Below are positions 579 to 29,097 of a stretch of DNA of 49,593 nt, piece by piece. The stretch is from Nitrosomonadales bacterium (GTDB taxonomy: Bacteria; Pseudomonadota; Gammaproteobacteria; Burkholderiales; Gallionellaceae), in the NCBI GenBank assembly GCA_016235045.1, contig JACRME010000023.1, positions 1 through 49,593 of the forward strand, given 5' to 3'. Numbering within the stretch: the first letter of the stretch is position 1; every line of letters begins with the position of its first letter. The position numbers and the translations under genes are program-made. Below the pieces are notes generated by a model. The model was not told the origin of the DNA and did no database searches. It saw only the letters and a list, made by a program, of their open reading frames with translations.

Positions 579-1661
579 TCAGCCGAAAATACTGGCAAAG
601 TCGTCGTCGTCGCCGCTGCAGACCGGGCAAACATCCCCGCCGCTTTCCTTGACGAAGACCCGGTCGCATTGCGTGCAGCGCTGTTTCGCCACGGCAACCA
701 TCAACCTGCCCTTTTGTTTGTTGATGATAACTTCCTCCGCATGCTCCCGGCGCAGCACTTTCGGCTGGCACACTTCGGCGCAGACATCGCAGGCAACGCA
801 GCGGTCATTCAGCACGGCCAGCCGCCACGCGGTATTGCTTTCCAGCAACTGCAGCGCGCCTGTCGGGCACACCCGCACACAGGCCTCGCAATAGGTGCAG
901 CCGCGCACCACCTCCCAGTCTTCCGCCGGTATCGCATCATGCCTGAAGACGGTGATCGCACCCTCGCCCGTTGCATGCAGCTTGTTCAATATTGCCTTGC
1001 GCTCCGGCAGGAACGGCGCCGCGGCGCGGATCGCCTTGAGCGGTGCCGGGGCCGCGTCGAGCTTGCCGGACACCACATCCGCACCGTGCCCGACGATACG
1101 GTGAAACAGGCTGCGGCGCGTTGCATCCAGTTTTTCATGCTTGCCGGTTGCTTCCACTTCCCCGCTTCGCAGCGTGATCGCCGCCCAGGTCGCAGGCACA
1201 CCCGCGCTGCACAGCATTTCGCGCGCCGCAAGGTTGGAGCGGATCATGTCCTTTCCCCTGCTGGCATGCGAACACTCGACGCAGTGCTCCACACCGGCCA
1301 GTTCCAGTGCGATGTCCTGCCGCGACAACTCGGCCAGCACCACCGGATGCAGCGCCCCCAGGCAGGGAACGACCACCGTGGCCGCCAGTTCCGAAGGCGC
1401 ACAGGCGATGGTCATTTGTTTCGATTCGCCCGCCATTTTGAGCAGATGGTCGGCGGAGACGCCGATCTGGTTCAACGCCTCGGTCTGGCAGGCAGCCGCA
1501 CACAAGCCGCAATGTTTGCAACGCCCGCCCAGCACCTCGACTCCCGCATCGAACAGGCGGATGGCCTCATGCAGACAGGCATCCGCGCAGCGGCTGCATG
1601 CGCTGTAACTGTAGCGGTAGCGAACACAGCGCTCTGCATGGAATCCGGGGGCGACGAGCAT
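579..1661 (-). CDS. Polyferredoxin with four 4Fe-4S-type motifs and a C-terminal Cys4 knuckle
   Basis: A 360-residue soluble protein. The N-terminal part (about 18-65) has two ferredoxin-like Cys clusters (CSRCADAC and CKHCGLCAAAC). The C-terminal part (about 250-300) has two more (CTYCEACVRVCP and CVACDVCAEVC). The last 30 residues hold CTQC and CPVC, a zinc-ribbon or rubredoxin-like pair. The middle of about 180 residues carries scattered Cys and no fold I can name. No signal peptide is seen, so it is probably cytoplasmic. It starts 2 bases after the rhodanese-like gene and is clearly in the molybdoenzyme operon. It could carry electrons to or from the complex or serve maturation; the sequence does not decide. 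Confidence 0.8.
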   Translation of the reverse strand: MLVAPGFHAERCVRYRYSYSACSRCADACLHEAIRLFDAGVEVLGGRCKHCGLCAAACQTEALNQIGVSADHLLKMAGESKQMTIACAPSELAATVVVPCLGALHPVVLAELSRQDIALELAGVEHCVECSHASRGKDMIRSNLAAREMLCSAGVPATWAAITLRSGEVEATGKHEKLDATRRSLFHRIVGHGADVVSGKLDAAPAPLKAIRAAAPFLPERKAILNKLHATGEGAITVFRHDAIPAEDWEVVRGCTYCEACVRVCPTGALQLLESNTAWRLAVLNDRCVACDVCAEVCQPKVLRREHAEEVIINKQKGRLMVAVAKQRCTQCDRVFVKESGGDVCPVCSGDDDDFASIFG

Positions 1662-3347: not shown

Positions 3348-4196
3348 TCACTTCTTCCTTTGCAATCGTTCCTCGATCAGGGAAATATCGATCGCCAACT
3401 GGTCGGCGGCCGACTTTCCTTTCCCTGGCTGCCCTTTTTCGCAGGCGTTGCAGACCGGTTCGTTGGAATCGCTCTCGTACTCGATCTCGGCCAGCGGCAC
3501 TTTCAGTTTGCCGCCGTCCACATCGTCCACCCGCACCCCCAGCAACCCAAGCTCCCACTCGGCGAAACTGCCCAGCAGTTTTGCGATTTCGCGGTAGAAG
3601 GAGTACTCGGTCGCGCGTCCCAGCAGGGACGCATAGCCGCGCACCCACTTGCCCAGATGCAGCGCCCAGAAACGCTTGATGCTCTTGATCGTTTCGACAT
3701 AATCGCTGCGGTTACCGCCAGCCAGCGCTACGGCCGCGCGATCCAGCATTGCCGCGACGTACATCAGTTCGGCGCCGAGCTGGTCGTCGAACACCATGAA
3801 ACGTCCGCCGGACACCTTGAAGCCCGCCTGTTGGTAAATCTTGCGCACCTCAAAAAAGGATTGCTGCTGAAAACGCCCATACAAGCGGATTGACTCCACT
3901 GCCGGGCAGCCGCCCGTCACGACAAACAGCACCGCATATTCCTGAGCCAGCTCTTCCTGCAACTGCCCGATCGGCGCGTCGGTGAAATCCGGGCCAAACG
4001 CCGCACCCAGTCCGCGCAGGGAAGCCATCACTTCCGGCGACCTGATTGCCTGCAGGTATTCCGCCGTCGGCTCTTCCAGAAAGGCACCGCTCAAAATGCG
4101 GTAGATATTGGCTCTGGCTTTGCATTCCGCGACCAGCTCGCCGTCCGATAATTCTGCTTCGGCATTGATAACGCCTTCCAACACGGCTGTCGTCAT
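3348..4196 (-). CDS. TorD/DmsD-family molybdoenzyme chaperone
   Basis: A protein of about 282 residues with the all-helical TorD pattern: an N-terminal ARANIYRILSGAFLEEPT segment, a central LAQEYAVLFV segment, and a long C-terminal helix region. The family binds the twin-arginine leader of the cognate Mo enzyme and helps cofactor insertion before Tat export. Downstream of the domain is a Cys pair (VCNACEKG), unusual for TorD and possibly metal-binding. In-frame ATGs lie at 4238, 4202 and 4196. AAAGG stands directly against 4202 but at normal distance from 4196 (MTTAVLEG), so I chose 4196. It follows subunit A after a 156-base gap and heads the accessory gene run. Confidence 0.85.
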   Translation of the reverse strand: MTTAVLEGVINAEAELSDGELVAECKARANIYRILSGAFLEEPTAEYLQAIRSPEVMASLRGLGAAFGPDFTDAPIGQLQEELAQEYAVLFVVTGGCPAVESIRLYGRFQQQSFFEVRKIYQQAGFKVSGGRFMVFDDQLGAELMYVAAMLDRAAVALAGGNRSDYVETIKSIKRFWALHLGKWVRGYASLLGRATEYSFYREIAKLLGSFAEWELGLLGVRVDDVDGGKLKVPLAEIEYESDSNEPVCNACEKGQPGKGKSAADQLAIDISLIEERLQRKK

Positions 4197-4352
4197 TTTC
4201 ATCCTTTCAAAAAACAGCCCGGCTCGAGGAGATCGCACCGGGCTGCACTGCTCTACATCGCTCTGCTCTTGCTACTGCTCTTGCTGCTGCACCCCCCGCC
4301 CCCCGCCGCGGAGGCAATTCCCGGCGAACGGCAGGGAATCCTGTTCACCACC

Positions 4353-6980: not shown

Positions 6981-7835
6981 TTAGAAATAAGTTTGGACGA
7001 TCTGTCCGCCGATCAGGATGGAATAGCGCAGCGCCATCCCGCCCACCAGCAGTAAACCGCCCGCGAGCATCATGCCGCTCTGCTGTTTGCCGGAATTGGT
7101 CAGCAATACCGCGATCGGCGCAACCGTGCCGACCAGAATGCCCAGACCGAGGAACACCGCGCCCAGCGTGCCGCTGGTCATGAACATGAAGGTCAGTTCC
7201 GAACCGGAGCCGCCGTAGGCCGTCGTGCCGAGCAGCGAAACCAGCATCGCGGCAACCGCACCGGCAGACCACAGCATGAACCTGCGCAGCATCTCCAGCA
7301 GCTTTTCGCCTTTGGCGATGAAGGTCGCCACCGCCGCGCCGGAAAGCAGCGACAACGCCACGAACAGCACCGGCATCAACGGCGTGTTCCACACCGGACG
7401 GTTCTGGTGCACGGTCAGATCGAAGCCGGTATAGATCGGCAAGCCCAGCGCCAGCAGGGCCCCCGCCACCGCCAGCTTGCGGCTGGTCGCTTCGTCGTTC
7501 TTGCGCATCGTCATGAAATAGGCGATGGACACCAGTCCGAACGTCACCAGGTTCAGTCCGCCCCATGCCAGCGGCGAAGAGAAATTGAGGTAAGCCGGAT
7601 TCAGGATGTTGAGAAAGCGCATCGGCTGGGTCAGGTCGGCGATCAGCAGCAAGCCCCCTGCCGCCAGCAGCACAAACGATACGTTGAACGCCGGCTTCCT
7701 GAGCACCTGGAATTCAGGCCGGTACCAGGACAACGCCGAAAAGAAAAACATGGCGGCGGAGATGCCGATCACGAAGAAGTAGATTGCGTACGTTCCCGAC
7801 CACGGCATGATATGAAAAATATTGAAGTCACCCAT
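6981..7835 (-). CDS. NrfD/PsrC-type integral membrane subunit
   Basis: A 284-residue protein with about eight hydrophobic segments (first around residues 16-36, last around 254-275) in the NrfD/PsrC pattern. Such subunits anchor the periplasmic A-B dimer and exchange electrons with the quinone pool without haem. The gene lies between subunit B (10-base gap) and subunit A (15-base gap), so B, C and A are one transcript. A conserved-looking polar segment (DLTQPMRF, about residue 67) follows the second segment, as in PsrC proteins. No signal peptide, no Cys-rich extension. Confidence 0.88.
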   Translation of the reverse strand: MGDFNIFHIMPWSGTYAIYFFVIGISAAMFFFSALSWYRPEFQVLRKPAFNVSFVLLAAGGLLLIADLTQPMRFLNILNPAYLNFSSPLAWGGLNLVTFGLVSIAYFMTMRKNDEATSRKLAVAGALLALGLPIYTGFDLTVHQNRPVWNTPLMPVLFVALSLLSGAAVATFIAKGEKLLEMLRRFMLWSAGAVAAMLVSLLGTTAYGGSGSELTFMFMTSGTLGAVFLGLGILVGTVAPIAVLLTNSGKQQSGMMLAGGLLLVGGMALRYSILIGGQIVQTYF

Positions 7836-7845
7836 GATTCCCCCC

Positions 7846-8550
7846 TTAACTATGGTTCTGGTTGAACACGGCGCGCTCGACTTCCATCACATCCTGCGGG
7901 TTATAGATCTTGCGACCTATCTCGGTGTGATTGCGGTCTGCGCCGATGTAAAAGACGTGCGGCTTGGTACCCTCTTCCGGACGCAGCACCTGCGTCGGCA
8001 GCGAGTTCACCAGATAGGAAACTTCGCTGGCGGGATCGTTGAGGTCGCCGAAAATGCGCGAGCGTCCCACGCAGGTCTGCACACAAGCCGGAACCAGCCC
8101 CTGGGTCACGCGGTGATGGCAGAACGTGCACTTGTCCACCACGCGGGTGATGTCGGTATAGGTGCGATGCTTGGGCAACATGAAGCGCGCGTTGTACGGG
8201 CACGAAGCCATGCAGGCCTTGCAGCCGATGCAGCGGTCATAGCGCTGCAGCACGAAACCGCCGTCGTCCACCTTGTAGGTGGCTTCAACCGGACATGCGC
8301 GCACGCAAGGAGGATCGTCGCAGTGGTTGCACAGCCTGGGCAGGAACATCTTGCGCACAGTCGGATACTTACCGATGACCTTGTACGGCACCCAGGTACG
8401 GAACACGCCCAGCGGCACGTCGAATTCTGCCTTGCACGCCACCATGCAGGCATCGCAGCCTATGCAACGGCGCAGGTCGATCACCATGGCATAGCGCTTC
8501 TTGCCCGGCACCCCCCTTGTCTCTATCGATGAAATGCGCAATTCGCTCAT
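7846..8550 (-). CDS. Four-cluster 4Fe-4S electron-transfer subunit (PsrB/TtrB-type)
   Basis: A 234-residue protein with four ferredoxin-type Cys groups: CIGCDACMVAC (about 31-41), CNHCDDPPCVRACP (about 74-87), CIGCKACMASCP (about 107-118) and CTFCHHRVTQGLVPAC (about 140-155). This is the standard layout of the small subunit of PsrB, TtrB, DmsB and related enzymes, carrying electrons between the Mo subunit and the NrfD subunit. There is no own Tat leader, which is normal for a subunit co-exported with A. It is the first gene of the operon, 83 bases downstream of the start predicted for a sigma-54 promoter at 8644-8659. Confidence 0.9.
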   Translation of the reverse strand: MSELRISSIETRGVPGKKRYAMVIDLRRCIGCDACMVACKAEFDVPLGVFRTWVPYKVIGKYPTVRKMFLPRLCNHCDDPPCVRACPVEATYKVDDGGFVLQRYDRCIGCKACMASCPYNARFMLPKHRTYTDITRVVDKCTFCHHRVTQGLVPACVQTCVGRSRIFGDLNDPASEVSYLVNSLPTQVLRPEEGTKPHVFYIGADRNHTEIGRKIYNPQDVMEVERAVFNQNHS

Positions 8551-8643: not shown

Positions 8644-8659
8644 AGCACTTTTTGTGCCA
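8644..8659 (-). promoter_or_regulatory. Sigma-54 promoter of the molybdoenzyme operon
   Basis: On the minus strand the bases read TGGCACAAAAAGTGCT. The -24 GG and -12 GC are separated by the required 10 bases; only the first T of TTGCW is changed to G. Transcription would start near 8633, about 83 bases before the subunit B gene. Three operator-like dyads lie upstream at 8724-8794, and a sigma-54 response regulator is encoded nearby at 12024-13418. Confidence 0.7.
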
Positions 8660-8723
8660 TGGCTGTTATCAAGCTGTTTTCCCTGAAAATAGAATTCGGC
8701 ACGGCAAAATAATCGGGCAGGTC

Positions 8724-8739
8724 ATTACCTTTTGGTCGC
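8724..8739. promoter_or_regulatory. Operator-like site 1 (degenerate) upstream of molybdoenzyme operon
   Basis: ATTACCTTTTGGTCGC, a degenerate copy of the dyad at 8746-8761, matching the core TTACC-N4-GGT. It lies about 66 bases upstream of the -24 element and exactly 22 bases (two helical turns) from the next copy. Confidence 0.55.
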
Positions 8740-8745
8740 AGCGTG

Positions 8746-8761
8746 ATTACCGTTTGGTAAT
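8746..8761. promoter_or_regulatory. Operator-like site 2 (best dyad) upstream of molybdoenzyme operon
   Basis: ATTACCGTTTGGTAAT, nearly perfect twofold symmetry. This is the best copy of a site found three times here and twice before the porin. It is likely an enhancer for the sigma-54 regulator encoded at 12024-13418; the protein-site link is inferred. Confidence 0.62.
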
Positions 8762-8778
8762 GGTTTCCGGCTTTGCCC

Positions 8779-8794
8779 ATTACCGTTGGGTCAC
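8779..8794. promoter_or_regulatory. Operator-like site 3 upstream of molybdoenzyme operon
   Basis: ATTACCGTTGGGTCAC, with an intact left half and a partly conserved right half. It is 33 bases (three helical turns) from site 2. It also lies about 130 bases upstream of moeB, so it could serve both divergent transcripts. The rest of the 8551-8924 gap shows no gene; a weak TATAGT at 8829-8834 might be a -10 box for moeB but has no clear -35 partner. Confidence 0.52.
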
Positions 8795-8924
8795 TCCCAT
8801 GTTCAACCGTCCGTCTTTACTGTAGTGGTATAGTTATTGCGTACTGTGTGCAGGGCCGCCGATGCGCATCCGGGCCTGCCGGAGCGCACTGACATCCCTA
8901 TCACCACCACCCGATGACGCCGAC

Positions 8925-9722
8925 ATGAACGATCAGCAACTGTTACGCTACAGCCGCCACATCCTGCTGGAGGAGATCGGCATCGAAGGGCAGCAACGCC
9001 TGCTCGACGCCCGTGCGCTCATCGTCGGGTTGGGCGGACTGGGTTCGCCTGCCGCGCTGTATCTCGCCGCCAGCGGCGTCGGCCATCTTACGATCTGCGA
9101 CAACGACAGGGTCGACTTCAGCAATCTGCAGCGCCAGATCATTCACCGCACCGCCTCCGTCGGCCTGACCAAGGTCGCTTCCGCGCAGGCGGCCCTGCAT
9201 GACATCAACCCGGATATCGAATGTGTCGGCCTGCCGATCCGCGCCGACGAGAAGCAATTGAACGAACTGGTTGCAAAATCAGACGTGGTGCTGGATTGCA
9301 GCGATAACTTCGATACGCGCTACGCCATCAATCGCGTCTGCCTGCGCCGGCGCAAGCCGCTGGTCTCCGGTGCCGCCGTGCAGTTTCACGGGCAGGTCGC
9401 GGTATACGATTTCCGCTGTGATGATTCACCCTGCTACAACTGCCTGTTCCCGGAAGATTTGCAGGCCGCCGAATTGCGTTGCGCCACGACCGGCGTGTTT
9501 GCGCCGCTGGTCGGCATCGTCGGCACCCTGCAGGCCGCCGAAGCGCTCAAGCTGCTGATGGGAATTCCCCACGGGTTGAGCGGCAGGCTGCTCAGCTTCA
9601 ACGCGCTGGACATGAACATCCTGCAAACCCGGCTGTGCCGGGATCCGGCCTGCCGCACATGCGGCGGGCACGCGGCAGGCGCCAGCACAACCGAACCCGC
9701 CGTTGGTATGCACCATGGTTAG
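8925..9722 (+). CDS. moeB: MoeB/ThiF-type adenylyltransferase (HesA/MoeB/ThiF family)
   Basis: A 265-residue E1-like protein. It has the nucleotide loop GLGGLGSP (about 37-44), the LQRQ segment, and two Cys pairs for structural zinc (CYNC about 172 and CRTC about 245). The family adenylates the C-terminal Gly-Gly of MoaD or ThiS. In this island with moaA and moaC, a molybdenum cofactor role is the natural reading, though ThiF-like proteins look alike. ATG at 8925 (MNDQQLLRYSRHILL) is the typical family start; upstream in-frame codons are not. It overlaps the following sensor gene, so it appears co-transcribed with the three-gene regulatory system. Confidence 0.85.
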   Translation: MNDQQLLRYSRHILLEEIGIEGQQRLLDARALIVGLGGLGSPAALYLAASGVGHLTICDNDRVDFSNLQRQIIHRTASVGLTKVASAQAALHDINPDIECVGLPIRADEKQLNELVAKSDVVLDCSDNFDTRYAINRVCLRRRKPLVSGAAVQFHGQVAVYDFRCDDSPCYNCLFPEDLQAAELRCATTGVFAPLVGIVGTLQAAEALKLLMGIPHGLSGRLLSFNALDMNILQTRLCRDPACRTCGGHAAGASTTEPAVGMHHG

Positions 9723-10596
9723 CTGTTTGCGCCGCTGGTTATGGTTGCTGCTGTTGCTTGCCCCGCTGGCGCAGGCAGCCGAAAAGACACCGTCTCCGGC
9801 CGCAGTGCGCATCGGGCTCACCCCGGTTTTCCTCGACGATCAGGCTGCCTTCGTCAGTGCCTGGCGCATCTATCTCGAGGCCCGCCTGCACCGGCCGGTC
9901 ACCTTCGTGCAGCGTGGCAGCTACCGCGAGACCGTGGATATGCTGCGTGAAGGCAAACTCGACTTCGCATGGGTGTGCGGTTACCCGTATGTGCGGAACC
10001 GCGACGTGTTCCGGCTGCTCGCCGTTCCGCTCTACAAGGGCGAGCCGCTTTACCAGTCCTATATCATCGTGCCGGCCGGCGACAAGCAGACGCGTTCGAT
10101 CAGCGATCTGCGCGGCAAGGTGTTTGCCTTTTCCGACCCCGATTCAAATTCCGGGCACCTGTATCCGGAATACCTGCTGGCCAAACGCGACGAAACGGCT
10201 GCCGGCTTTTTTTCCAAGACCTTCTATACCTGGAGCCACCGCAAAGTGGTCGAAGCCGTTGCGAGCGGGCTGGCGCAAGGCGGCGCAGTGGACGGCTATG
10301 TATGGGACACCCTGGTGTTTTCGCACCCGGAATTGACCAACAAGACGCGCGTAATCGCCGAATCGCCGCAGTTCGGCCATCCGCCTTTCGTCGCGAGCCG
10401 CAGCGTTTCGCCGCAGTTGTTCGACGATATGCAGAAAGCCCTGGTCAACATGGTTCACGACCCCGAAGGTTCACCCATGCTGGCCATCCTCAATCTGGAC
10501 GGCTTCGTCTACGGTGACCCGCACCTGTTCGACGGCATCGCCGAAATGTTCCAATTCATCGAAGCCCGGCGCAATGCTGCATCTCAAAGACATTAG
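9715..10596 (+). CDS. PhnD-like periplasmic binding protein, sensory component
   Basis: A 293-residue protein with a signal peptide (MVSCLRRWLWLLLLLAPLAQA) and a two-lobe PhnD/phosphonate-binding-like fold. Recognisable segments include RIGLTPVFLDDQ, LDFAWVCGYPYV and FSDPDSNSGHLYPEYLLA. No permease or ATPase follows; instead the next genes are a kinase and a regulator. Related stand-alone PhnD-like proteins (AioX, ArxX) or the N-terminal domain of TtrS sense the substrate of a neighbouring molybdoenzyme. The mature part has a single Cys (in WVCGYP). The start at 9715 overlaps the moeB stop; an ATG at 9703 is also possible. The ligand is unknown. Confidence 0.85.
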   Translation: MVSCLRRWLWLLLLLAPLAQAAEKTPSPAAVRIGLTPVFLDDQAAFVSAWRIYLEARLHRPVTFVQRGSYRETVDMLREGKLDFAWVCGYPYVRNRDVFRLLAVPLYKGEPLYQSYIIVPAGDKQTRSISDLRGKVFAFSDPDSNSGHLYPEYLLAKRDETAAGFFSKTFYTWSHRKVVEAVASGLAQGGAVDGYVWDTLVFSHPELTNKTRVIAESPQFGHPPFVASRSVSPQLFDDMQKALVNMVHDPEGSPMLAILNLDGFVYGDPHLFDGIAEMFQFIEARRNAASQRH

Positions 10597-12031
10597 CCTC
10601 TGGTACAAGATACCGCTACGCGTCGCTGCCCTGGTCATCGTTACCGCCGGCGTGCTGGCCTCGGTGCTGGTTTACCGCAGCATCAGCGACCTGCACGACA
10701 ACCTGACCGCCAATGCCACGCGGGTCGGGCGTTTGGTGGCCGACACGCTGGTGGAACCGATCCTGCACGACGACGTGTGGCGCGCATTCGAAGTCGTCAA
10801 CCTCCCGTTCCGCTCGATGCCGAATCAGGCTTCCGATCAGTCCGCGGAATATGTCCTGGTACTGGATACCCATAACCTGGTCTATGTCTCGAACAAGCCG
10901 GATCGGTTTCCGATGATGCGCGCACCGGAAATCAGCGAGCCTTCCATCGCGACCTATCTCAACACGCCTGCGCAGCCGTGGCCGGATGAAATGGCGGTGG
11001 TGGATGCCCCCGCATCGAACGCCCTGTTCCTGCTGACGCCGATCAAATCGGACGGCGTGCGTATCGGCACGCTGGTGATGAATTATTCCAAGACCCCGTT
11101 CTCCATCCGTTTGCGCAGCCTGACCCGGGATGCCATTCTGATCACGCTGCTGGTACTGGCGGCCCTGCTCCCGCTGGGGGTGTATTGGGGCAGGCGCATG
11201 GCTTCGCCGTTGCTGCAATTGTCCGATGCCATGAAAAGGATTGGCCCGCACCTTCCCGCCCCGGAAGAAATCCGGCTGGAGGAATCCAAGGACGAAATCG
11301 GCTTGCTCGCCAAATCCTTCAAGGCCATGCTGGGCGAGTTGAAGGAAAAGGAGCAGTTGCAGCAGCAGATCATCACTTCGGACCGACTGGCGGCGCTCGG
11401 TCGGCTGGCCTCCGGCGTTGCGCACGAGATCAACAATCCGCTGGGCGGCATGCTCAATGCGATCAGCACGTTCAAGCGCCATGGCGAGCAGGATCCGATC
11501 ACGCTGAAGACGCTCTCCATCCTCGAGCGGGGACTCCTGCAAATCAAGGAGACGGTGGCCGCATTGCTGGTCGAAGCCAGGGCGCAAACCCGCCCCTTCG
11601 ACCTGAACGACGTGGCGGACATCTGCACGCTGGTGCAACCCGATACCGATAAGAAACAGGTCAACTTCACGCGCGAGATCGATATCGTCGAGGCGCAGCC
11701 GATCTCCTCCACGCTGGTGCGCCAGGTCATCATCAACCTGCTGCTGAATGCCTTCCATGCCACGCAGCCGCACGGGCATGTCCATTTGCACATCTATTGC
11801 GACCGCGAGCACCTGTTCGTCGACGTGATCAACGACGGCTCGCACATTCCGCAAGACAAGGTGTCCTACCTGTTCGAACCATTCACCACTTTGAGCGAGG
11901 GCGGCAGCGGATTGGGACTTTGGGTGATTTATCAAATCGTGCAACAATTGGGCGGACTCATCACGGTACAGAGCGAGCCGGACAGGACGCAATTCACCGT
12001 GCAACTACCGCTGGAAAAACCTCATGAGTAA
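10574..12031 (+). CDS. Membrane sensor histidine kinase
   Basis: A 485-residue kinase. TM1 is near residues 16-37, followed by a periplasmic sensor region of about 150 residues, TM2 near 190-210, a HAMP-like linker, then the phospho-acceptor His in GVAHEINNPLGG (H284), an N-box (NLLLNAFHA) and a GSGLGL ATP lid. It overlaps the binding-protein gene by 23 bases and the response regulator by 8 bases. The ATG at 10574 was chosen over 10514, which would give a much larger overlap with a Cys/Ser-rich non-family extension. It probably receives the ligand-bound PhnD-like protein as signal, as proposed for AioS/ArxS systems. Confidence 0.88.
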   Translation: MLHLKDISLWYKIPLRVAALVIVTAGVLASVLVYRSISDLHDNLTANATRVGRLVADTLVEPILHDDVWRAFEVVNLPFRSMPNQASDQSAEYVLVLDTHNLVYVSNKPDRFPMMRAPEISEPSIATYLNTPAQPWPDEMAVVDAPASNALFLLTPIKSDGVRIGTLVMNYSKTPFSIRLRSLTRDAILITLLVLAALLPLGVYWGRRMASPLLQLSDAMKRIGPHLPAPEEIRLEESKDEIGLLAKSFKAMLGELKEKEQLQQQIITSDRLAALGRLASGVAHEINNPLGGMLNAISTFKRHGEQDPITLKTLSILERGLLQIKETVAALLVEARAQTRPFDLNDVADICTLVQPDTDKKQVNFTREIDIVEAQPISSTLVRQVIINLLLNAFHATQPHGHVHLHIYCDREHLFVDVINDGSHIPQDKVSYLFEPFTTLSEGGSGLGLWVIYQIVQQLGGLITVQSEPDRTQFTVQLPLEKPHE

Positions 12032-13418
12032 ATCCCTGCAACCGCTCATTTGCCTGATCGAAGACGACGAGATCATGGGCGAATCGCTGTTCGACCGCTT
12101 CGGACTGGAAGGCTTCCGCATCGAGTGGCATCACACCGGCCTGGAAGGCCTGCGCGCGATCGGCAACAAGCAGTATGACCTCATCATCAGCGACATTCAC
12201 CTGCCCGACCTCAATGGCGAAGAGATTTTCACGCGCCTGAGCGCCGATAACCGGCACCTGCCGCCGTTCATCTTCATCACCGGCTACGGCTCCATCGACC
12301 GCGCCGTGCGCCTGCTCAAGCTGGGCGCGGCGGACTACATCAGCAAGCCCTTCGATCTCGACTTGCTGATCGAAAAAGCGCATATGCTATGCCCCGAGCA
12401 ACCTGATGACGCACCGGCTGAAGTACACGGCTCGGACGCCTTGGGGATATCCCCCGCCATGCGCACCATCGAACAATCCATCCCGCGCCTGGCCAAGTTG
12501 GCCAGCACCATCCTGATCACCGGCGAGTCCGGCGCGGGCAAGGAACATGTGGCGCAACTCATCCACCGCCACGCGCGCCATGACCGTAACGCCCCCTTCG
12601 TCGCCATCAACTGCGGCGCGGTCACCGAAAGCCTGCTTGAATCCGAACTGTTCGGCCACGAGAAGGGCTCCTTCACCGGCGCGGCCAAGGCGCGCAAAGG
12701 CGTGTTCGAGCAGGCGCATGGCGGCACGCTGTTCCTGGACGAGATCGGCGAAATGACGCTCAACATGCAGGTCAAACTGCTGCGCGCCATCCAGGAGCGC
12801 GTCATCGTCCGCGTCGGCGGCGAAACGCCCATCCCGGTCGACGTGCGCCTGATCTGTGCCACCAACCGCGACCTGAAAAAGATGGTCGAAGAAGGCACCT
12901 TCCGCGAGGATCTTTACTACCGCATCCACGTCATCCGTCTGCGCATACCGCCGTTGCGGGAACGCAAGGAAGATATCGTGTGGTTCACGCAACTGTTTTT
13001 GCGCATGTGCGCGGAAGTCAGCCACGAGAGCCATGTCCTGACCCCGCCCGCCGAGCGCGCCCTGCTCAATTATGATTGGCCGGGCAACCTGCGCGAACTC
13101 AAGCACAGCGTGGAACGGGCCTGCATCCTCTCGACCGATCCAATGCTCGACGCGGAAGCCTTCTTCGACGATGCCACTGTGCCGGCAAACAGCCTGCACG
13201 AGCAAGAGCCTGCCGCCACCGACAGTACGCTCAACGAATACCTGCGCGAGTGCGAACGCAAATTCATCCTGCACTCGCTGGTGCAGAACCACTGGCATTA
13301 CGGCAACACCGCCGGCGCGCTCGGCATCAGCCGCAAGAACCTGTGGGAAAAAATGAAGAAGCTCGACATTCATGCCGACAAGCATGGAGATGTGATCGCC
13401 GTCGTTAACAGACAATAA
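12024..13418 (+). CDS. Sigma-54-dependent response regulator (NtrC family)
   Basis: A 464-residue activator. It has a receiver domain (phospho-acceptor D57 in ISDIHLPD), an AAA+ domain with Walker A GESGAGKE (167-174), the sigma-54 contact loop GSFTGA (215-220, Ser where GAFTGA is usual), Walker B LFLDEIGEM, and a Fis-type helix-turn-helix near 430-455 (NTAGALGISRKNLWEKM). It is translationally coupled to the kinase. The dyads TTACC-N4-GGT in front of the molybdoenzyme operon and the porin, each with a -24/-12 promoter, are its likely targets. Confidence 0.92.
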   Translation: MSKSLQPLICLIEDDEIMGESLFDRFGLEGFRIEWHHTGLEGLRAIGNKQYDLIISDIHLPDLNGEEIFTRLSADNRHLPPFIFITGYGSIDRAVRLLKLGAADYISKPFDLDLLIEKAHMLCPEQPDDAPAEVHGSDALGISPAMRTIEQSIPRLAKLASTILITGESGAGKEHVAQLIHRHARHDRNAPFVAINCGAVTESLLESELFGHEKGSFTGAAKARKGVFEQAHGGTLFLDEIGEMTLNMQVKLLRAIQERVIVRVGGETPIPVDVRLICATNRDLKKMVEEGTFREDLYYRIHVIRLRIPPLRERKEDIVWFTQLFLRMCAEVSHESHVLTPPAERALLNYDWPGNLRELKHSVERACILSTDPMLDAEAFFDDATVPANSLHEQEPAATDSTLNEYLRECERKFILHSLVQNHWHYGNTAGALGISRKNLWEKMKKLDIHADKHGDVIAVVNRQ

Positions 13419-13470
13419 AAAGGAGCGCCCGGAGACGCCCCTGAATTTGTTGCCTGAAGGAACTGTGCCC

Positions 13471-13496
13471 GGGACAGGCTGATGGATTCCTGTCCC
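13471..13496. repeat. Stem-loop between convergent regulator and porin genes
   Basis: GGGACAGG and CCTGTCCC form an 8-bp stem around a 10-base loop between the convergent response regulator and porin stop codons. No T-run follows on either strand, so terminator function is only possible. Confidence 0.4.
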
Positions 13497-13514
13497 ATGC
13501 AGATGATCCAACGC

Positions 13515-14618
13515 CTAGAACTTGTACACGGCCCCGACCGAGACTGCCGACGGATCCTTGCCCGCAGCGGAAGGAGCGCCGACGCCGCTGTGGCCCCAGC
13601 CGGATGCACTGAAGGACGCGCCGTCATCGTTCGTGACCTTGGCATAAGCGACATAGACTGTGGTGGACTTGTCCATGCTGTGGTCGTAGCCAACCGCCAT
13701 CATCGTCGCGCCATCGTTCGAATTCGCAACGGAGGACTTGGCGGTCTTGGTGAACTGCGCCTTCACCACGCCCTCGTCGGACACCTTGAAGCTGGCGCCT
13801 GCGGTGATCGTATTCTGGGTGGTGCTGGATCCGCCGTTGTTAGCTTCGGCGTTCGCACCGTTGCTGGTGTATTGCACACCCGCCTTGCCCATGCCGAAAT
13901 CATAGCTCGCCGACACCGAAGCCACCGTCAGCTTGGCATCCTTAAGCATCGTGGCAGCCACGCCCGCCACACCGATGCTCTGGTAGGACAGTGCTGCCGT
14001 CACCGGGCCGCCGCTGTAGCTGCCGCGCAGGGTGAAGCTGGATTGCTTGTTGGCAACGGCTTGGCCGGCACCCACGCTTTCCTGCGTGTTGGGCACGAAT
14101 GCCGCCAGCACGGAGACGCCGCCCATGCCGGGAGCGGCATACGCCAGCGCGCGGTTTACGCGACCGCCGACAATATTGCCCACCACGGCCAGGTTGCCGA
14201 CATCGCCCACCTGGTCGGCGAAGAAATTCACGTCATACAGGTACTGGTTGGTCAGCGGCAAGCGGCCCGCCAGGACGGTGCCGAAGCCACCGCCCAGTCC
14301 GATGAAGGTGTCGCGCGTGCCGTTGAAGATGGTGCCCGCACCGGAGCCATCCCCCGCCACGCTGGCTTCATACTGGAACAGCGCCTTCATGCCGTTGCTT
14401 AGCTCCGTCGCTCCCTTGAAACCCAGGCGGGAGGAGTTGCTGGTGATCTGCATGCCGTCCTGCGTGCCGGTGGCCGTCGCGCCGCCATTGCCGCTGTGGC
14501 TATCCAAAGACAGATGCGCTTGACCATAAACAGTAACTTCGGCCATCGCCATAGCCGGTGCGAACGCTGCCGCAACAGCCAGGGTAATCAATTTCTTCTT
14601 CATGCTGTATCTCCTCAC
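13515..14618 (-). CDS. Gram-negative (Neisseria/Burkholderia-type) outer-membrane porin
   Basis: A 367-residue protein with a signal peptide (MRRYSMKKKLITLAVAAAFA, cleavage after AMA). The mature protein starts EVTVYGQAHLSLDS and ends AVSVGAVYKF, with a C-terminal Phe and repeated amphipathic strands typical of 16-strand trimeric porins. A GLGGGFGTVLAGR segment near residue 110 is the standard constriction-loop region. It has its own sigma-54 promoter (14663-14678) and two copies of the operator found before the molybdoenzyme operon, so it probably imports or exports that enzyme's substrate or product. An alternative start at MKKKLITL (14603) is equally plausible. Confidence 0.9.
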   Translation of the reverse strand: MRRYSMKKKLITLAVAAAFAPAMAMAEVTVYGQAHLSLDSHSGNGGATATGTQDGMQITSNSSRLGFKGATELSNGMKALFQYEASVAGDGSGAGTIFNGTRDTFIGLGGGFGTVLAGRLPLTNQYLYDVNFFADQVGDVGNLAVVGNIVGGRVNRALAYAAPGMGGVSVLAAFVPNTQESVGAGQAVANKQSSFTLRGSYSGGPVTAALSYQSIGVAGVAATMLKDAKLTVASVSASYDFGMGKAGVQYTSNGANAEANNGGSSTTQNTITAGASFKVSDEGVVKAQFTKTAKSSVANSNDGATMMAVGYDHSMDKSTTVYVAYAKVTNDDGASFSASGWGHSGVGAPSAAGKDPSAVSVGAVYKF

Positions 14619-14662
14619 GGGTTGGAATTAAAGTTCGACGTTAGAACCGTCCTTCCCGTTTC

Positions 14663-14678
14663 AGCAATTGCCATGCCA
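14663..14678 (-). promoter_or_regulatory. Sigma-54 promoter of the porin gene
   Basis: On the minus strand the bases read TGGCATGGCAATTGCT, a near-consensus -24/-12 element with the GG and GC 10 bases apart and an intact TTGCT. Predicted start near 14652, about 34 bases before the porin ATG. Confidence 0.75.
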
Positions 14679-14759
14679 GCCGGTCCGGCCCGCTTAACAC
14701 AAAATTTACAAAGAAAAATCCCGCTTAACGGGCGCAAAATGCCCCGCTCTGCCGGGAGC

Positions 14760-14775
14760 GTTACCGCGCGGTGTC
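14760..14775. promoter_or_regulatory. Operator-like site 1 upstream of porin
   Basis: GTTACCGCGCGGTGTC, matching TTACC-N4-GGT. It lies about 83 bases upstream of the porin -24 element and 33 bases from the next copy, the same spacing as between sites 2 and 3 at the molybdoenzyme operon. Confidence 0.55.
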
Positions 14776-14792
14776 AGCAAAGGGTAACGGTT

Positions 14793-14808
14793 ATTACCGT
14801 TCGGTAAA
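14793..14808. promoter_or_regulatory. Operator-like site 2 upstream of porin
   Basis: ATTACCGTTCGGTAAA, 15 of 16 bases of a perfect dyad and almost the same as the site at 8746-8761. It is located immediately after the moaA stop codon. An overlapping half-site (GGTAACGGTTATTACC, 14783-14798) abuts it. Confidence 0.62.
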
Positions 14809-14813: not shown

Positions 14814-15932
14814 TCATCCACCGATGTAATGCATCTCCACCCGTTCCCGGGCACGTTCGGTGGGAAGGTGGCGCTGCTGGGAATAGCGGTCGTCGCGTTG
14901 CCGCCAAATATCGGCGATCAGATTGGCGATCCCGTGATCGTTTATCCCGGCGCGCAACGGGGTGCGCAAATCAAATCCCGAACCCGCAAACAGGCAGGTA
15001 TAGAATTTGCCGTCGGTGGATATCCGAGCGCGCGTGCATTCGTGGCAAAACGCCTGCGTCACCGAAGCGATCACGCCGACCTCGCCGCCGCCGTCGGCAT
15101 AGCGCCAGCGCTCGGCCACTTCGCCCAATTGGCTGGGCTCGACCTGCTGCAAGGGATAGTGCAGCGCGATGCGGTCGAGAATTTCGCGTGCCGGAACGAC
15201 ATCCTCCATGCACCAGCCGTTGCTGCAGCCGACGTCCATGTATTCGATGAAACGCAACACCACGCCGCTGCGGCGGAAGTGTTCGGCCATGGGCACGATC
15301 TCGTGCTGGTTCGCGCCGCGCTTGACCACCATGTTGACCTTGACCTGATCGAAACCGGCCGTCTGCGCCGTTGCGATCCCGTCCAGCACGGTGGCAACGG
15401 ACACTTTCGAGTCGCTCATTGTCTTGAACGTCGCATCGCTCAAGCCGTCCAGGCTGACCGTTACGCGATCCAGGCCGGCCTCCCTGAGCGCGCGCGCTTT
15501 TCTGGCCAGGATCACGCCGTTGGTCGTCATTGCGATTTCCAGCGGTTTGCCTTCGACGGTTTGCAGGCGGGCGAGTTTTTCGACGAGCCGCTCGATACCG
15601 TGCCGGAGCAGGGGTTCGCCGCCGGTCAGTCGTATCTTCTGCACGCCGAGCCGGAGGAATTGCCGCGCAATGCGTTCGATCTCTTCGAAGGAGAGCAACT
15701 CGCCGCGCGGCAAAAAGGCGTGACTGCCGTCGAAAATCTCGCGCGGCATGCAATACGTGCAGCGCAGATTGCAGCGATCCGTAACCGAAATGCGCAAGTC
15801 GCGCAGCGGGCGCTGCAGCTTATCCAGTACCGGCGTCGTGTAATCGCGCGGCATTTCCAGCTTGTAGTAAGACGGCGCAACTGCACGCAGTGCTGCGGGT
15901 TGAAACGTGATGGTTCGAAAAGCGTCGGTCAT
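14814..15932 (-). CDS. moaA: GTP 3',8-cyclase MoaA
   Basis: A radical SAM enzyme of about 372 residues. The SAM cluster motif is CNLRCTYC, a GGEPLL segment follows, and the C-terminal second cluster has [11 protein letters not shown] and a later CLF; the chain ends in Gly-Gly as MoaA must. MoaA makes 3',8-cyclo-GTP, the first step of molybdenum cofactor synthesis. The frame is open to 15974; I took ATG 15932 ([10 protein letters not shown]), but ATG 15854 ([13 protein letters not shown]) is closer to the usual family N-terminus and none has a clear ribosome site. It lies between the porin and the tetraheme cytochrome and belongs functionally to the island with moeB and moaC. Confidence 0.92.
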
Positions 15933-16013
15933 GGCAGTGGAAGCCGAAGAATGATCTTGGCCGTGGTATTGCAAGTTTCACGCCATCAACTCAAGACAAG
16001 GCCTCGCAACAGG

Positions 16014-16613
16014 TTATTCGTCTTCAATCGGGTCTTCGTATTCCCTGGGCAGCAAATGCGCGACACCCTTGTGGCAGTCGATACAGGTCTTGCCCTTGGC
16101 TTTTGCTTTCACGTGAATATCGAAAACCACCTGTTTTTCCGGGTATCGCCGCATGGCGTCGAAACTGTGGCAGTTGCGGCATTCGCGCGAGTCCGACGCC
16201 TTCATGCGCTCCCATTCGCTGGTGGCCAGCACCATCCGCCGCGCTTCGAATTTTTCCGGGGTATCGATAACGCCGGTGATCTTTCCCCATATTTCCTGGC
16301 TCGCCTGGATCTTGCGCCATAATTTGTGCGTCCAGTCCTTGGGCACGTGGCAATCGGAACAGATCGCGCGCACCCCGCTCGGGTTGGTGTAGTGGATGGT
16401 TTTCTTGTATTCCCGATACACGTTATCGCGCATTTCGTGACAGCTAATGCAGAATTCAAGCTGGTTGGTGGCCTCCATGCCGGTGTTGAAACCGCCCCAG
16501 AACAGGATGCCGGAATAGAAACTGATCAGGGCAATCGTCAGCACGGAAAATTTCGCTGTCGGCTTGCGCAGGAATATCCAGGTTTGATCAAGGATGTTTT
16601 GCTTGTTTTTCAT
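16014..16613 (-). CDS. NapC/NirT-family tetraheme c-type cytochrome
   Basis: A 199-residue protein with one N-terminal membrane anchor (about 22-42) and four haem-binding CxxCH motifs: CISCH, CSDCH, CRNCH and CIDCH. This is the NapC/NirT/CymA layout: a membrane-anchored quinol dehydrogenase passing electrons between the quinone pool and periplasmic partners. No nitrate or nitrite reductase gene is adjacent, so the partner is open. It could serve the molybdoenzyme island or an extracellular electron route. It ends 81 bases before the moaA start and is oriented the same way; no operator copy is seen upstream. Confidence 0.9.
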   Translation of the reverse strand: MKNKQNILDQTWIFLRKPTAKFSVLTIALISFYSGILFWGGFNTGMEATNQLEFCISCHEMRDNVYREYKKTIHYTNPSGVRAICSDCHVPKDWTHKLWRKIQASQEIWGKITGVIDTPEKFEARRMVLATSEWERMKASDSRECRNCHSFDAMRRYPEKQVVFDIHVKAKAKGKTCIDCHKGVAHLLPREYEDPIEDE

Positions 16614-16721
16614 CTGCCGTTACGCTTGTGTTATCGAAATGGATAAGTCCGTTGCACCGGACAGATTGCGGGCCGGAGCCTGCTGCCAGTACCCGGTCGC
16701 GCGGGGCTGCCGAGGATGTCT

Positions 16722-16778
16722 AGGGAAGCGCTGATTTATCCGGTTTCGCCGGTATGACAAATTAATCAGCGTTTCCCT
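16722..16778. repeat. MITE-like inverted repeat downstream of tatB
   Basis: AGGGAAGCGCTGATT (16722-16736) pairs with AATCAGCGTTTCCCT (16764-16778), one mismatch in 15 bp, around a centre that is itself symmetrical (CCGGTTTCGCCGG). This looks like the two ends of a small transposon-derived element. It occupies the place where tatC would normally follow tatB. Confidence 0.5.
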
Positions 16779-16808
16779 TGATACATCGCGACTTTTAATA
16801 ACAGGCAC

Positions 16809-17165
16809 TCACGTCTGTTTGGGCGGGGAGGGGGGCTCGGGGGGCGCGGCGGGATTGCCCGAATCCGGCGCCGATTTCTCGAGCTCCTGCTCCAGTTGGC
16901 GCAGTTCGCTGCTCATGATGTTGCCGGTCTGCTGCACCGTGCGTTCCAGGGCCTGCGCTTCCGCTTTGACCTTGCGTTCCAGATCGCGCAGTTCCTCCAA
17001 CTCCATGCTGGTGGTGACGTCCATCTTGATGCGGTTGACGTAGCGTTGCATGCGTCCCCACCATTGCCCCATGGTGCGCGCCACCTTGGGCAGGCGCTCG
17101 GGGCCGATGACGATCAGCGCCACGACCATGATGACCATAATTTCCGAGAAATCCACGCCGAACAT
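16809..17165 (-). CDS. tatB: Sec-independent translocase subunit TatB
   Basis: A 118-residue protein with one N-terminal membrane helix (FSEIMVIMVVALIVIGPERL), the GPERLP hinge diagnostic of TatB, an amphipathic helix and a long Glu/Lys-rich C-terminal tail ending in a Pro-rich stretch. TatB with TatC recognises twin-arginine substrates such as molybdoenzyme subunit A at 4353-6965. It lies 46 bases downstream of tatA. No tatC follows. Confidence 0.92.
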   Translation of the reverse strand: MFGVDFSEIMVIMVVALIVIGPERLPKVARTMGQWWGRMQRYVNRIKMDVTTSMELEELRDLERKVKAEAQALERTVQQTGNIMSSELRQLEQELEKSAPDSGNPAAPPEPPSPPKQT

Positions 17166-17211
17166 CGAATCCCCTTAGTTCGCCCGCAACTGCAGCAATG
17201 TGGCGCAACCC

Positions 17212-17430
17212 TCAAACATGGTTGCGGGTTTTGCTTTTCGCTTCGCCGTCGGCGGCCTGCTCGCCTTCGCGCAATTGTCTGGGGGAGTCTTCATCCGTTT
17301 TCATCCCCTCCTTGAAGCCTTTTACCGCGCCACCCAGATCGCTGCCGATGTTGCGCAGTTTCTTGGTGCCGAATATCAGCACCACGACCAGCAGGACGAT
17401 CAACCAATGCCAGATACTGAACGAACCCAT
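17212..17430 (-). CDS. tatA: Sec-independent translocase subunit TatA
   Basis: A 72-residue protein: a single membrane helix ([14 protein letters not shown]), the [14 protein letters not shown] hinge, and an amphipathic helix typical of TatA. It forms the translocation pore of the Tat system. It lies directly upstream of tatB. The 103 bases between it and the apbC gene carry no recognisable feature apart from a good ribosome site (AGGAG) in front of tatA. Confidence 0.93.
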
Positions 17431-17533
17431 TTCTACTCTCCTGTGTTAGGGCGCCGTGTCGGCCCGCCGCAAGTTGCCGTCAGACCGCGCCAAAAGCATT
17501 GGCAGCAATATTCACGCCAAGCGCATTCCGGAA

Positions 17534-18625
17534 TCAGGTGTTCTGCACCACGATCTTGGGGAACGCCGCGCTGTGGTCCTGTGCCATTTCGGCGACCTTG
17601 ACCGCAACGCGCCGCGCGATCTGCTTGTACACCCTGGCGAGTTTGCCGTCGGGGTCGGCCACCACGGTCGGCGTGCCGGAATCGGTTTGTTCGCGGATGT
17701 TGATGTCCAGCGGCAGGCCGCCGAGGAATTCGGTGTTGTAGTCGGCGCACATCTTTTCGCCGCCGCCCGCGCCGAAGATATGCTCTTCGTGGCCGCACTT
17801 GGAGCAGATGTGCGTGCTCATGTTTTCCACGATGCCGACGATCTTGATACCGGTTTTCTCGAACATCTTGAGACCCTTGCGCGCATCCAGCAGCGCGATG
17901 TCCTGCGGCGTGGTCACGATCACGGCACCGGTCACCGGCACCTTCTGCGCCAGCGTCAACTGGATGTCGCCGGTTCCGGGCGGCAGGTCCAGCACCAGGT
18001 AGTCGAGGTTGTCCCACTTGGTCTGGTGCAGCAATTGATCCAGCGCCTGCGTCACCATCGGGCCGCGCCAGATCATCGGGGTGTCGGCATCGATGAGGAA
18101 GCCGATCGACATGGTCTGCAGGCCGTGGCCCATCATCGGGTTCATGGTCTTGCCGTCGGCCGATTCGGGTTGTCCGCTGATGCCAAGCATGGTGGGTTGC
18201 GACGGGCCGTAGATGTCGGCGTCCAGCATGCCGACGCGCGCGCCTTCGGCCGCCAGCGCCAGGGCCAGGTTCACCGCGGTCGTGCTCTTGCCCACGCCGC
18301 CCTTGCCGCTGGCCACGGCGATGATGTTCTTCACGCCGTCCACCAGTTTCACGCCGCGCTGCACCGCGTGCGGCACGACCTTGCTCGTCACGCTGGCGCT
18401 GACCTTGCCGACGCCGGGCAGGGTTGCCTTGAGGTGCGTTTCCACCATCGTGCGGATTTCTTCCCATACGCTTTTGGCAGGGTAGCCGAGCAGGACTTCC
18501 AGCGACACGTCGGTGCCGCCGATCTTGATGTTCTTGATGGATTTGCCGCTGATAAAGTCTTTTTTGGTGTTGGGGTCGATCAGGTTTTTCAATGCCCCCT
18601 GCACGTCGGCTTCTGTGAAACTCAT
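17534..18625 (-). CDS. apbC: Iron-sulfur cluster carrier ApbC/Mrp (P-loop ATPase)
   Basis: A 363-residue Mrp/NBP35-family protein. The N-terminal MIP18-like domain (about 1-90) is followed by the deviant Walker A GKGGVGKST (about 106-114), a DLPPGTGD Walker B-like segment and the conserved Cys pair CSKCG (about 272) that bridges a 4Fe-4S cluster in the dimer. It delivers FeS clusters to apo-proteins. The frame continues upstream to 19273, antisense to the NlpC/P60 gene; the ATG at 18625 with AGGAG ahead is the true start. It is transcribed toward tatA. Confidence 0.93.
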   Translation of the reverse strand: MSFTEADVQGALKNLIDPNTKKDFISGKSIKNIKIGGTDVSLEVLLGYPAKSVWEEIRTMVETHLKATLPGVGKVSASVTSKVVPHAVQRGVKLVDGVKNIIAVASGKGGVGKSTTAVNLALALAAEGARVGMLDADIYGPSQPTMLGISGQPESADGKTMNPMMGHGLQTMSIGFLIDADTPMIWRGPMVTQALDQLLHQTKWDNLDYLVLDLPPGTGDIQLTLAQKVPVTGAVIVTTPQDIALLDARKGLKMFEKTGIKIVGIVENMSTHICSKCGHEEHIFGAGGGEKMCADYNTEFLGGLPLDINIREQTDSGTPTVVADPDGKLARVYKQIARRVAVKVAEMAQDHSAAFPKIVVQNT

Positions 18626-18751
18626 TCTCTGCTCCTGCGAAATAATTATGAAAGGCGTAATTCTATACCAGAGTGTGCAGGCAAAGCCCTTCTTGGGGTG
18701 CGGTTTATCGACCGCTTTACAGCGCAAGCCGCCCTGCCTTACATTGCGGCC

Positions 18752-19213
18752 ATGAATAGACTGTTGCTCATTGCCTTTTCGCTGCTGCTGGCATCCTGCG
18801 GTTCGGCGCCAACCCGCCAGTACGCCGTTTCCGACGACCGGATGAACGACCTGGTGATGTATGCGGTGAGCCTGGCCGATACGCCCTATCGCTACGGCGG
18901 CAATTCGGCCAATGGCGGGTTCGATTGCAGCGGCTTCGTCGGCCATGTCTACCGTCATTCGCTCGGCGTTTCCATGCCGCGCACCAGCCGCGAGATCAGC
19001 CGGATCGGCAAGCCGGTCGGCCTGGGCGAACTGAGTCCGGGCGACCTGGTGTTCTATAACACCCAGCACGCTTCCTTCTCTCACGTCGGGATATACATCG
19101 GCGACGGCAAATTCGTGCACTCGCCCCGCAGCGGCGAGAGCGTACGCACGGAACAAATGCAGTTGAGTTATTGGCAGGCGCGTTTCGACGGTGCGCGGCG
19201 CATCCGCCGCTAG
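18752..19213 (+). CDS. NlpC/P60-family lipoprotein (peptidoglycan endopeptidase)
   Basis: A 153-residue protein with a lipoprotein signal (lipobox LLASC, Cys at 16) and an NlpC/P60 domain. The catalytic Cys is in FDCSGFV, the His in SHVGIYIG, and a second polar residue lies in FVHSPRSG. These enzymes cleave the gamma-D-Glu-diaminopimelate bond in peptidoglycan stem peptides, here at a membrane-anchored periplasmic location. It resembles E. coli Spr/YafL-size proteins. It is divergent from apbC. Confidence 0.9.
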   Translation: MNRLLLIAFSLLLASCGSAPTRQYAVSDDRMNDLVMYAVSLADTPYRYGGNSANGGFDCSGFVGHVYRHSLGVSMPRTSREISRIGKPVGLGELSPGDLVFYNTQHASFSHVGIYIGDGKFVHSPRSGESVRTEQMQLSYWQARFDGARRIRR

Positions 19214-19323
19214 CCCGGATATTTCATGAGGCAGTTTGCAGGAGCCCGGCTTGCCGGGCGATTTTCCGCACAAACCTTATCGCGCAACAAGTTGCGCTCC
19301 CACGGGCAGGCTGTCGAAAACGC

Positions 19324-25172: not shown

Positions 25173-25271
25173 TAAGACGCGCATTTCTCGCTCTTTCCTG
25201 CTTCACCCCGGCTTTGCCTCCAGGTTTTCATCACCGGTTTGCGACCTTGCCTAAAGTTCAAGGAGGCTGTC

Positions 25272-26099: not shown

Positions 26100-26163
26100 C
26101 GGCAGTACGGCAAGGCAGTTTTACAACTTTTAGCAGGTCCCGATAACGATAAGGAGATTCAAA

Positions 26164-26529: not shown

Positions 26530-26530
26530 A

Positions 26531-27103: not shown

Positions 27104-27252
27104 ACAGGGTGCGGCCCGACCATGGGCAGGGAGCGGATTCCCGAAAACGGAACCGGCCAGGGATTGAAGAAGCAATGCGAAGCATCGATACAGCGTGAAA
27201 TGAATTCGCTTTAGTTTGTCGTATTTTGCCGTGAATTGAAAAGGGGAACACC

Positions 27253-29058: not shown

Positions 29059-29097
29059 GTCCCCAATCAGCCGTCACCAACCGGGAAAGCGACCGAT

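Follow-up and report, generated by a model that had tools for sequence, protein, structure and literature searches.

The window, a stretch of 49,593 nucleotides from a Nitrosomonadales bacterium of the family Gallionellaceae (GenBank assembly GCA_016235045.1, contig JACRME010000023.1), carries an operon for a molybdopterin enzyme, a divergent set of regulatory genes and a porin gene. The minus-strand operon encodes, in order, an iron-sulfur (FeS) subunit, an NrfD-type membrane subunit, the catalytic subunit (here called MoA), a TorD-type chaperone, a frame of 404 amino acids (aa) and an ArxB2-like FeS protein. A divergent unit holds a MoeB/ThiF gene and then the genes for a binding protein, a sensor kinase and a response regulator (X, S and R; together XSR). 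Matching promoters and operator-like dyads support a shared sigma-54 regulon that would join the porin to the enzyme. The features of the cluster are as follows, in coordinates of the window:

8644..8659, minus strand: sigma-54 (-24/-12) promoter of the enzyme operon, TGGCACAAAAAGTGCT, an exact match to TGGCAY-N6-TGCT
14663..14678, minus strand: sigma-54 promoter of the porin gene, TGGCATGGCAATTGCT, an exact match to TGGCAY-N6-TGCT
8725..8738, plus strand: operator dyad 1 of the enzyme promoter, TTACCTTTTGGTCG, one half degenerate
8747..8760, plus strand: operator dyad 2 of the enzyme promoter, TTACCGTTTGGTAA, perfect in both halves
8780..8793, plus strand: operator dyad 3 of the enzyme promoter, TTACCGTTGGGTCA, one half degenerate
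14761..14774, plus strand: operator dyad of the porin promoter, TTACCGCGCGGTGT, one half degenerate
14794..14807, plus strand: operator dyad of the porin promoter, TTACCGTTCGGTAA, perfect in both halves
7846..8550, minus strand: iron-sulfur subunit (B), first gene of the operon; Pfam Fer4_11 and others; 77-93% identity across orthologous loci
6981..7835, minus strand: NrfD/PsrC-type membrane subunit (C); Pfam PF03916
4353..6965, minus strand: molybdopterin catalytic subunit (A, MoA); Pfam PF00384/PF01568/PF04879 and TAT_signal; Cys179 aligns with the Cys of ArrA and PhsA
3348..4238, minus strand: TorD/NarJ-type chaperone; Pfam PF02613
1664..2878, minus strand: open frame of 404 aa with no Pfam match; conservation among orthologous loci is mainly in the C-terminal part
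579..1661, minus strand: 4Fe-4S protein, distantly ArxB2-like (27%) by sequence comparison
8862..9722, plus strand: MoeB/ThiF-type adenylyltransferase, first gene of the divergent unit; start not fixed
9703..10596, plus strand: X, AioX-type (PhnD-type) periplasmic binding protein, from homology and pocket residues
10514..12031, plus strand: S, HAMP-HisKA-HATPase sensor kinase, from its domains; start not fixed
12024..13418, plus strand: R, response regulator with receiver, sigma-54 AAA+ and Fis-type HTH domains
13515..14618, minus strand: Gram-negative porin; Pfam PF13609; nearest solved chains PorB (4aui) and Omp32

The two promoters and the five dyads, three before the operon and two before the porin gene, lie where an earlier note on this DNA had placed them, with the gene for R, an NtrC-type activator, between the two promoters as that note had also said. 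Dyad coordinates are given here as starts of 14-mers; the 16-mers of the note begin one base before. The distances from dyad to dyad are exactly as it reported, namely 22 and 33 bp at the enzyme promoter and 33 bp at the porin promoter, and two of the five dyads (8747 and 14794) are perfect in both halves. The full 16-bp form reads (A/G)TTACC-N4-GGTAA(Y). Searching both strands of the window for TTACC-N4-GGT returned seven matches, which are the five sites and all fall in the two promoters; 0.50 matches were expected, and seven were reached in 0 of 100 shuffles. Relative to the -24 elements, the dyads are located some 80-135 bp upstream. TGGCAY-N6-TGCT likewise has just two exact matches in the window, the promoters listed above. 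With one mismatch allowed, nine matches were found against 9.08 expected, which is chance frequency, so it is only the dyads and their conservation that lend the window promoters their credibility.

Across the draft genome of this bacterium (3,145,614 bases in 33 contigs), the phased pattern TTACCN4GGT-N6-35-TTACC occurs solely at the two window promoters, with no match in a reversed control. The 16-mer of the earlier note, with up to three mismatches, gave 27 matches over the two strands, and its reversed control gave 18. Eight of the 27 are sites in the window and on contigs C29 and C30, and the remainder is 19 against 18, so weak single sites are not enriched and carry no meaning. Perfect TTACC-N4-GGTAA dyads occur at four places, these being the two window promoters, C29 and C30. 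The C29 dyad lies within the frame of a gene that looks ArsR-like from its sequence and, being inside a frame, was set aside as a chance site. On C30 (57911-57924; L127:7912), a lone perfect 16-bp dyad, ATTACCGCTTGGTAAT, is intergenic and precedes a gene for a GGDEF protein (diguanylate cyclase), for which the sole -24/-12 candidate is weak (score 8); this gene is a possible third member of the regulon.

The same arrangement recurs before orthologous operons. Relatives of MoA were drawn from a scan of named genome contigs (24), from 399 genomes of the same order, including the bacterium's own (12 more orthologues, 76-81% identity), and from plasmid pAZKH of Azoarcus sp. KH32C (one further orthologue, 78%). 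After the duplicates from five genomes present in both sources were dropped (L057, L058, L060, L062 and L068), 33 loci were kept, one of which (L097) is another contig of the genome that holds L086; in 31, the sequence before the FeS gene is long enough for the comparison. These totals of 33 loci and 31 operons, and that of 10 porins discussed below, all include the window. Expected counts come from dinucleotide shuffles, and sites were accepted at a score of at least 9. The strict dyad TTACC-N4-GGTAA, at 9/10 or better, precedes 24 of the 31 operons (0.21 expected); the remaining seven make up a TTACG group. If the inner position may be either C or G, a relaxation adopted once that group had been seen, a dyad precedes all 31 (0.94 expected; 0.83 in an earlier run). 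A sigma-54 site is found at 30 of 31 (4.79 expected), as are dyad and sigma-54 site together (0.14 expected); in the sole exception, L067, the sigma-54 site deviates once, in the -12 GC. Comparing orthologous intergenic regions, as the earlier note had suggested, therefore shows that the dyads are not absent there. Distances between neighbouring dyads fall within 1 bp of 22, 33 or 44 in 29 of 36 cases, although the loci are related and the 36 spacings are not independent trials.

Among four promoters of distant MoA homologues (39-42%; L069, L070, L071 and L073), none has the dyad, and none of these loci has this XSR in its stretch, L073 holding an X-like gene of 29% identity; a fifth, L072, was left out owing to a split FeS match. 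Perfect dyads occur somewhere in 8 of 12 orthologue-bearing genomes scanned, and those fetched from outside arx or molybdoenzyme loci mostly lack a second site and a promoter. Within the 399-genome search, close MoA was found in none of the other genomes of the same genus (3) or family (9). The cluster is patchy in distribution and looks horizontally acquired.

The divergent genes encode a three-component system of the AioXSR/ArxXSR type. Neither this nor the resemblance of the dyad to the AioR box had been seen by the earlier reader. X belongs to the AioX subfamily (E 6.5e-62 against AioX, 2.7e-40 against ArrX) and carries Cys106 and the six other AioX pocket residues, with genes for a HAMP kinase and an AAA+ sigma-54 response regulator beside it. 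Each of the 27 complete enzyme-linked X proteins has all seven residues and V56/F57, and a 28th, cut off in L085, agrees with the pocket as far as its sequence goes. The residues are those named in the accessible text of PMC5908839, where the Kd for arsenite is 177 nM in AioX and 311 nM in ArxX. Of the 28 loci with more than 3 kb of upstream sequence, 27 have an R gene no further than 5 kb from the start of the operon, and the 27 enzyme-linked regulators form one group in a tree (SH-aLRT 94; trees were built by a quick method with SH-aLRT as the only support, and long branches were flagged). According to the available part of PMC5335332, the AioR footprint protects GTTCGGATTTCCGAAC. The window dyad and the AioR box share the same 16-bp length and layout; the AioR pattern, GT[TC][AC][CG][GCT]..AAC, starts with G, whereas four of the five window sites start with A.

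Known systems share much of this layout, and the regulatory logic is that already known for AioR. In AioXSR-aioBA of Rhizobium NT-26 and Agrobacterium GW4, a periplasmic X, a kinase S and an NtrC-type R likewise accompany a sigma-54 promoter and 16-bp dyads, the NT-26 pair being 33 bp apart as in the window. The half-site is GTTCGG there and mostly (A/G)TTACC in the MoA loci. This system, too, has a second target besides the enzyme, a chemoreceptor gene (mcp; PMC5335332, in its accessible part) where the window has a porin. In ArxXSR-arxB2ABCD (Sulfuricella pSCD and others), XSR also stands beside the operon, R is 56-58% identical, the betaproteobacterial loci have GTTACC-type dyads, and NrfD, TorD and ArxB2-like subunits occur as here. 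The gene order differs (B2-A-B-C-D in arx, B-C-A-D in the MoA operon), and ArxX of the compared loci has A56 and T163, unlike the enzyme-linked X with V56. PsrABC and PhsABC also pair FeS and membrane subunits with a catalytic subunit whose Cys occupies the position seen in MoA.

The scan was extended to nine promoters of aio and arx operons that have homologous regulators. Four have clear dyad pairs: NT-26 aioB (33 bp), Cereibacter arxB2 (33 bp), Paraburkholderia aioB (43 bp; one GTTACG-type and one GTTACC-type dyad) and arx of genome G020 (42 bp). In two further arx loci, L114 and L119, a good dyad is paired with a weaker one at a distance of about 31 bp. Six of the nine promoters have a suitably placed sigma-54 site. 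The architecture is thus common to members of the family rather than a peculiarity of the window, though it is not seen everywhere. Adjoining the arx cluster of G020 is a third molybdoenzyme gene (L115:14810-17666), a frame of 886 aa whose best match is PhsA, far below the cut-off; it has a GTTACC dyad pair 42 bp apart and a sigma-54 site.

MoA is 73-87% identical among the cluster loci, and shares 27-28% identity with ArxA, 25% with an ArrA-type enzyme, 29% with E. coli PhsA and 22% with AioA. On all 25 NCBIfam models listed, its score falls well short of the curated cut-off. The best of these is the PhsA model, with 361 bits against a cut-off of 694, and an assignment to PhsA or PsrA by curated score was rejected on these figures. 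On the ArrA model MoA reaches 199 bits, compared with 431 for ArxA and 1032 for the ArrA-type enzyme, and the MoA orthologues form one clade outside the ArxA and ArrA group, so MoA was not taken for either. AioA was rejected on its low identity and on the partners of MoA, an FeS/NrfD pair instead of an AioA-type/AioB-type pairing. The best solved relative is a PsrA-type thiosulfate reductase (2vpw). MoA has Cys at the ArrA/PhsA Cys position, and the ArrA-aligned stretch keeps G-R, H and K, which we take to be R165, H189 and K198 of ArrA; as G-R and H are shared by enzymes of Thermomicrobium, of clade 2 and of the TtrA-like type, they are not diagnostic. The cytoplasmic enzyme SoeABC, to which the accessible text of PMC6620896 points as a candidate for arsenite oxidation, is distinct from MoA. 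The open-access literature searched, in the portions available, makes no mention of the MoA clade, the porin link or the TTACG variant.

Arsenic genes are found near some of these operons. Genes of the ars, arx or arr type or a second XSR lie nearby in 13 of 33 loci and in none of 10 control stretches (Fisher p 0.02). The 13 were compiled by hand on stretches of 3-37 kb; three rely on arx genes 9-16 kb away in whole genomes and four on a second XSR alone (at L081 the stretch shows no more than the R of this second system). The controls (L116-L118 and L120-L126) are few, shorter (8.9-16 kb) and come from chance dyad sites in orthologue-bearing genomes; left out were L114, L115 and L119, whose dyads lie at arx loci, and L127 and L128 of the own genome, which are also without arsenic genes. 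On pAZKH, for example, XSR is followed by one hypothetical gene and then by ACR3, arsA, arsD, arsC and an HTH gene. In the window, 13 arsenic queries found no match beyond its own MoA and FeS genes. An ACR3 pump (75%) is encoded elsewhere in the bacterium's genome, and a search of that genome returned no close homologue of ArxA or AioA and no second close X, which would make MoA the natural target of its XSR. At L064:18-2582, an ArrA-type arsenate reductase gene (1032 bits, curated cut-off 1600) lies about 10 kb from the MoA gene.

We consider it probable that the cluster is a sigma-54 regulon under an AioXSR/ArxXSR-type system, comprising a periplasmic molybdoenzyme and a porin, with trivalent arsenic or antimony as the likely signal. 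In the periplasm, X would bind a small oxyanion, of which trivalent arsenic or antimony is the likeliest; by analogy with AioXSR, the complex would activate the kinase S, which would phosphorylate R. Oligomers of R would then bind two or three phased 16-bp dyads on one helix face, loop to the sigma-54 polymerase and open both promoters, so that enzyme and porin would be made together. The first promoter would yield a periplasmic FeS-NrfD-molybdopterin complex, possibly an arsenite or antimonite oxidoreductase, and the second a porin through which the oxyanion, as substrate or product, might cross the outer membrane. Sequence and conservation establish the operators and promoters, whereas the substrate, which we infer together with the direction of the reaction, is the weakest step of this mechanism. 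More tentatively, and at slightly less than even odds, MoA may represent a further As(III)/Sb(III) respiratory molybdoenzyme family apart from Aio, Arx and Arr, with a co-regulated porin and spread horizontally among iron- and sulfur-oxidising and groundwater proteobacteria.

Several observations weigh against the regulon proposal. At 20 of the 33 loci, the window included, no arsenic gene was counted, and five carriers (G182, G358, G302, G020 and G150) also have ArxA, so that an arsenite role of MoA would be redundant there. ArrX has the same pocket residues, yet its ligand is arsenate (accessible text of PMC5908839), and the pocket residues alone therefore do not fix the ligand. The nearest enzymes outside the MoA clade are the uncharacterised clade 2 (39-40%) and those of Rhodococcus and Thermomicrobium (32-33%), and MoA is as close to PhsA as to ArxA, which leaves room for a sulfur or selenium substrate. 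The operator pattern is uneven as well: the arx promoter of Sulfuricella pSCD (L130) has a single dyad, aioB of Hydrogenophaga (L135) has degenerate dyads only, aioB of Pseudosulfitobacter (L134), with an IS element between operon and regulators, has none, and no fitting sigma-54 site was found in L133, L134 or L115. Locus L077 has a dyad and a sigma-54 promoter with no XSR within its 22.6 kb, and its porin gene has neither a dyad and promoter nor a position in the operon.

The same regulon and regulator could instead answer to sulfur, selenium or another oxyanion as signal or substrate, XSR having been taken over from arsenic control. The PhsA model as best NCBIfam match (if far below its cut-off), the solved relative 2vpw, the sulfur-oxidiser names of several hosts and the presence of arx in five carriers would all fit such a history. 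We nevertheless regard it as unlikely, though well short of negligible, given the AioX pocket and loop in all 27 complete enzyme-linked X proteins, the over-representation of arsenic genes nearby (on few controls) and a genome that has ACR3 without a close Aio or Arx homologue.

A similar porin gene lies near the enzyme at 10 of the 33 loci, in varying positions. Seven of the ten are preceded by a dyad and a sigma-54 site of their own (0.07 expected to have both), and at L063 and L092 the porin gene is inside the operon, between MoA and TorD. Alongside the 30 of 31 operons and the phased pairs unique in the genome, these counts lend support to the tie between porin and enzyme that the earlier note had drawn. 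Porins are common, and those of the other cluster loci share only 37-44% identity with the window porin, against 73-87% for MoA, as might be expected of a neighbour that has no functional tie to the enzyme. Such a neighbour would, however, have to acquire its own dyad and promoter in seven cases and join the operon in two, with gene orders changing, and the two porin paralogues of the own genome are just 34% identical to the window porin; we think this improbable. Omp32, one of the nearest solved chains, is anion-selective.

R is the probable binder of the dyads, and co-variation of regulator and operator supports this role. Operators of the form TTACG-N4-CGTAA are found at L059, L061, L067, L081, L082, L083 and L129, with a second dyad 44 bp off in all seven. 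Seven of the eight regulators with the recognition helix TRKT have such dyads, compared with none of 18 with SRKN; since the eight form one clade, the pairing counts as one evolutionary event. The only SRKS regulator (L066) has mixed dyads, and that of Hydrogenophaga (L135), with SRKT and outside the TRKT clade, has a GTTACC half-site. A one-residue code in the recognition helix was not confirmed, as the Hydrogenophaga regulator does not fit it. Some activator or repressor other than the adjacent R might read the dyads, as the case for R is made from sequence, L077 has a dyad with no XSR in its stretch and the C30 dyad stands alone. This is very improbable, however, for a regulator that is NtrC-type and adjacent, whose TRKT relatives pair with TTACG-N4-CGTAA and whose homologues accompany similar dyads at aio and arx operons. 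Chance or base composition as the origin of the dyads is effectively ruled out by the window shuffles, the uniqueness of the phased pairs and the conservation at 30 of 31 operons against 0.14 expected, even though the low-stringency 16-mer occurs at control frequency.

These results provide a searchable operator, that is, phased (A/G)TTACC-N4-GGTAA or TTACG-N4-CGTAA dyads before sigma-54 promoters, and tie a molybdoenzyme clade to an arsenite-type sensor. The presence of two half-site types within one regulator clade makes regulator-DNA recognition in this family testable. If the arsenic or antimony reading is true, surveys based only on aioA, arxA and arrA overlook a metalloid-transforming group, and the porin joins the pathway.

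Some neighbouring genes may also be mentioned. At L077, where XSR is missing, the upstream region instead carries arsA, arsD, arsC and an ArsR-like gene. Past the porin gene, positions 14814-19273 of the window hold moaA and genes for a NapC/NirT-type cytochrome, TatA and an Mrp-type ATPase; a close moaA also lies next to the porin gene in L074 and L076. Positions 25239-32436 encode a response regulator, CheW, a methyl-accepting protein and a CheA-like kinase (Hpt, HATPase, CheW and receiver domains), without a dyad, and look like an ordinary chemosensory or pilus-control cluster. At 34360-37476, a chromate-type transporter gene adjoins a gene for an ATP-sulfurylase/APS-kinase fusion.

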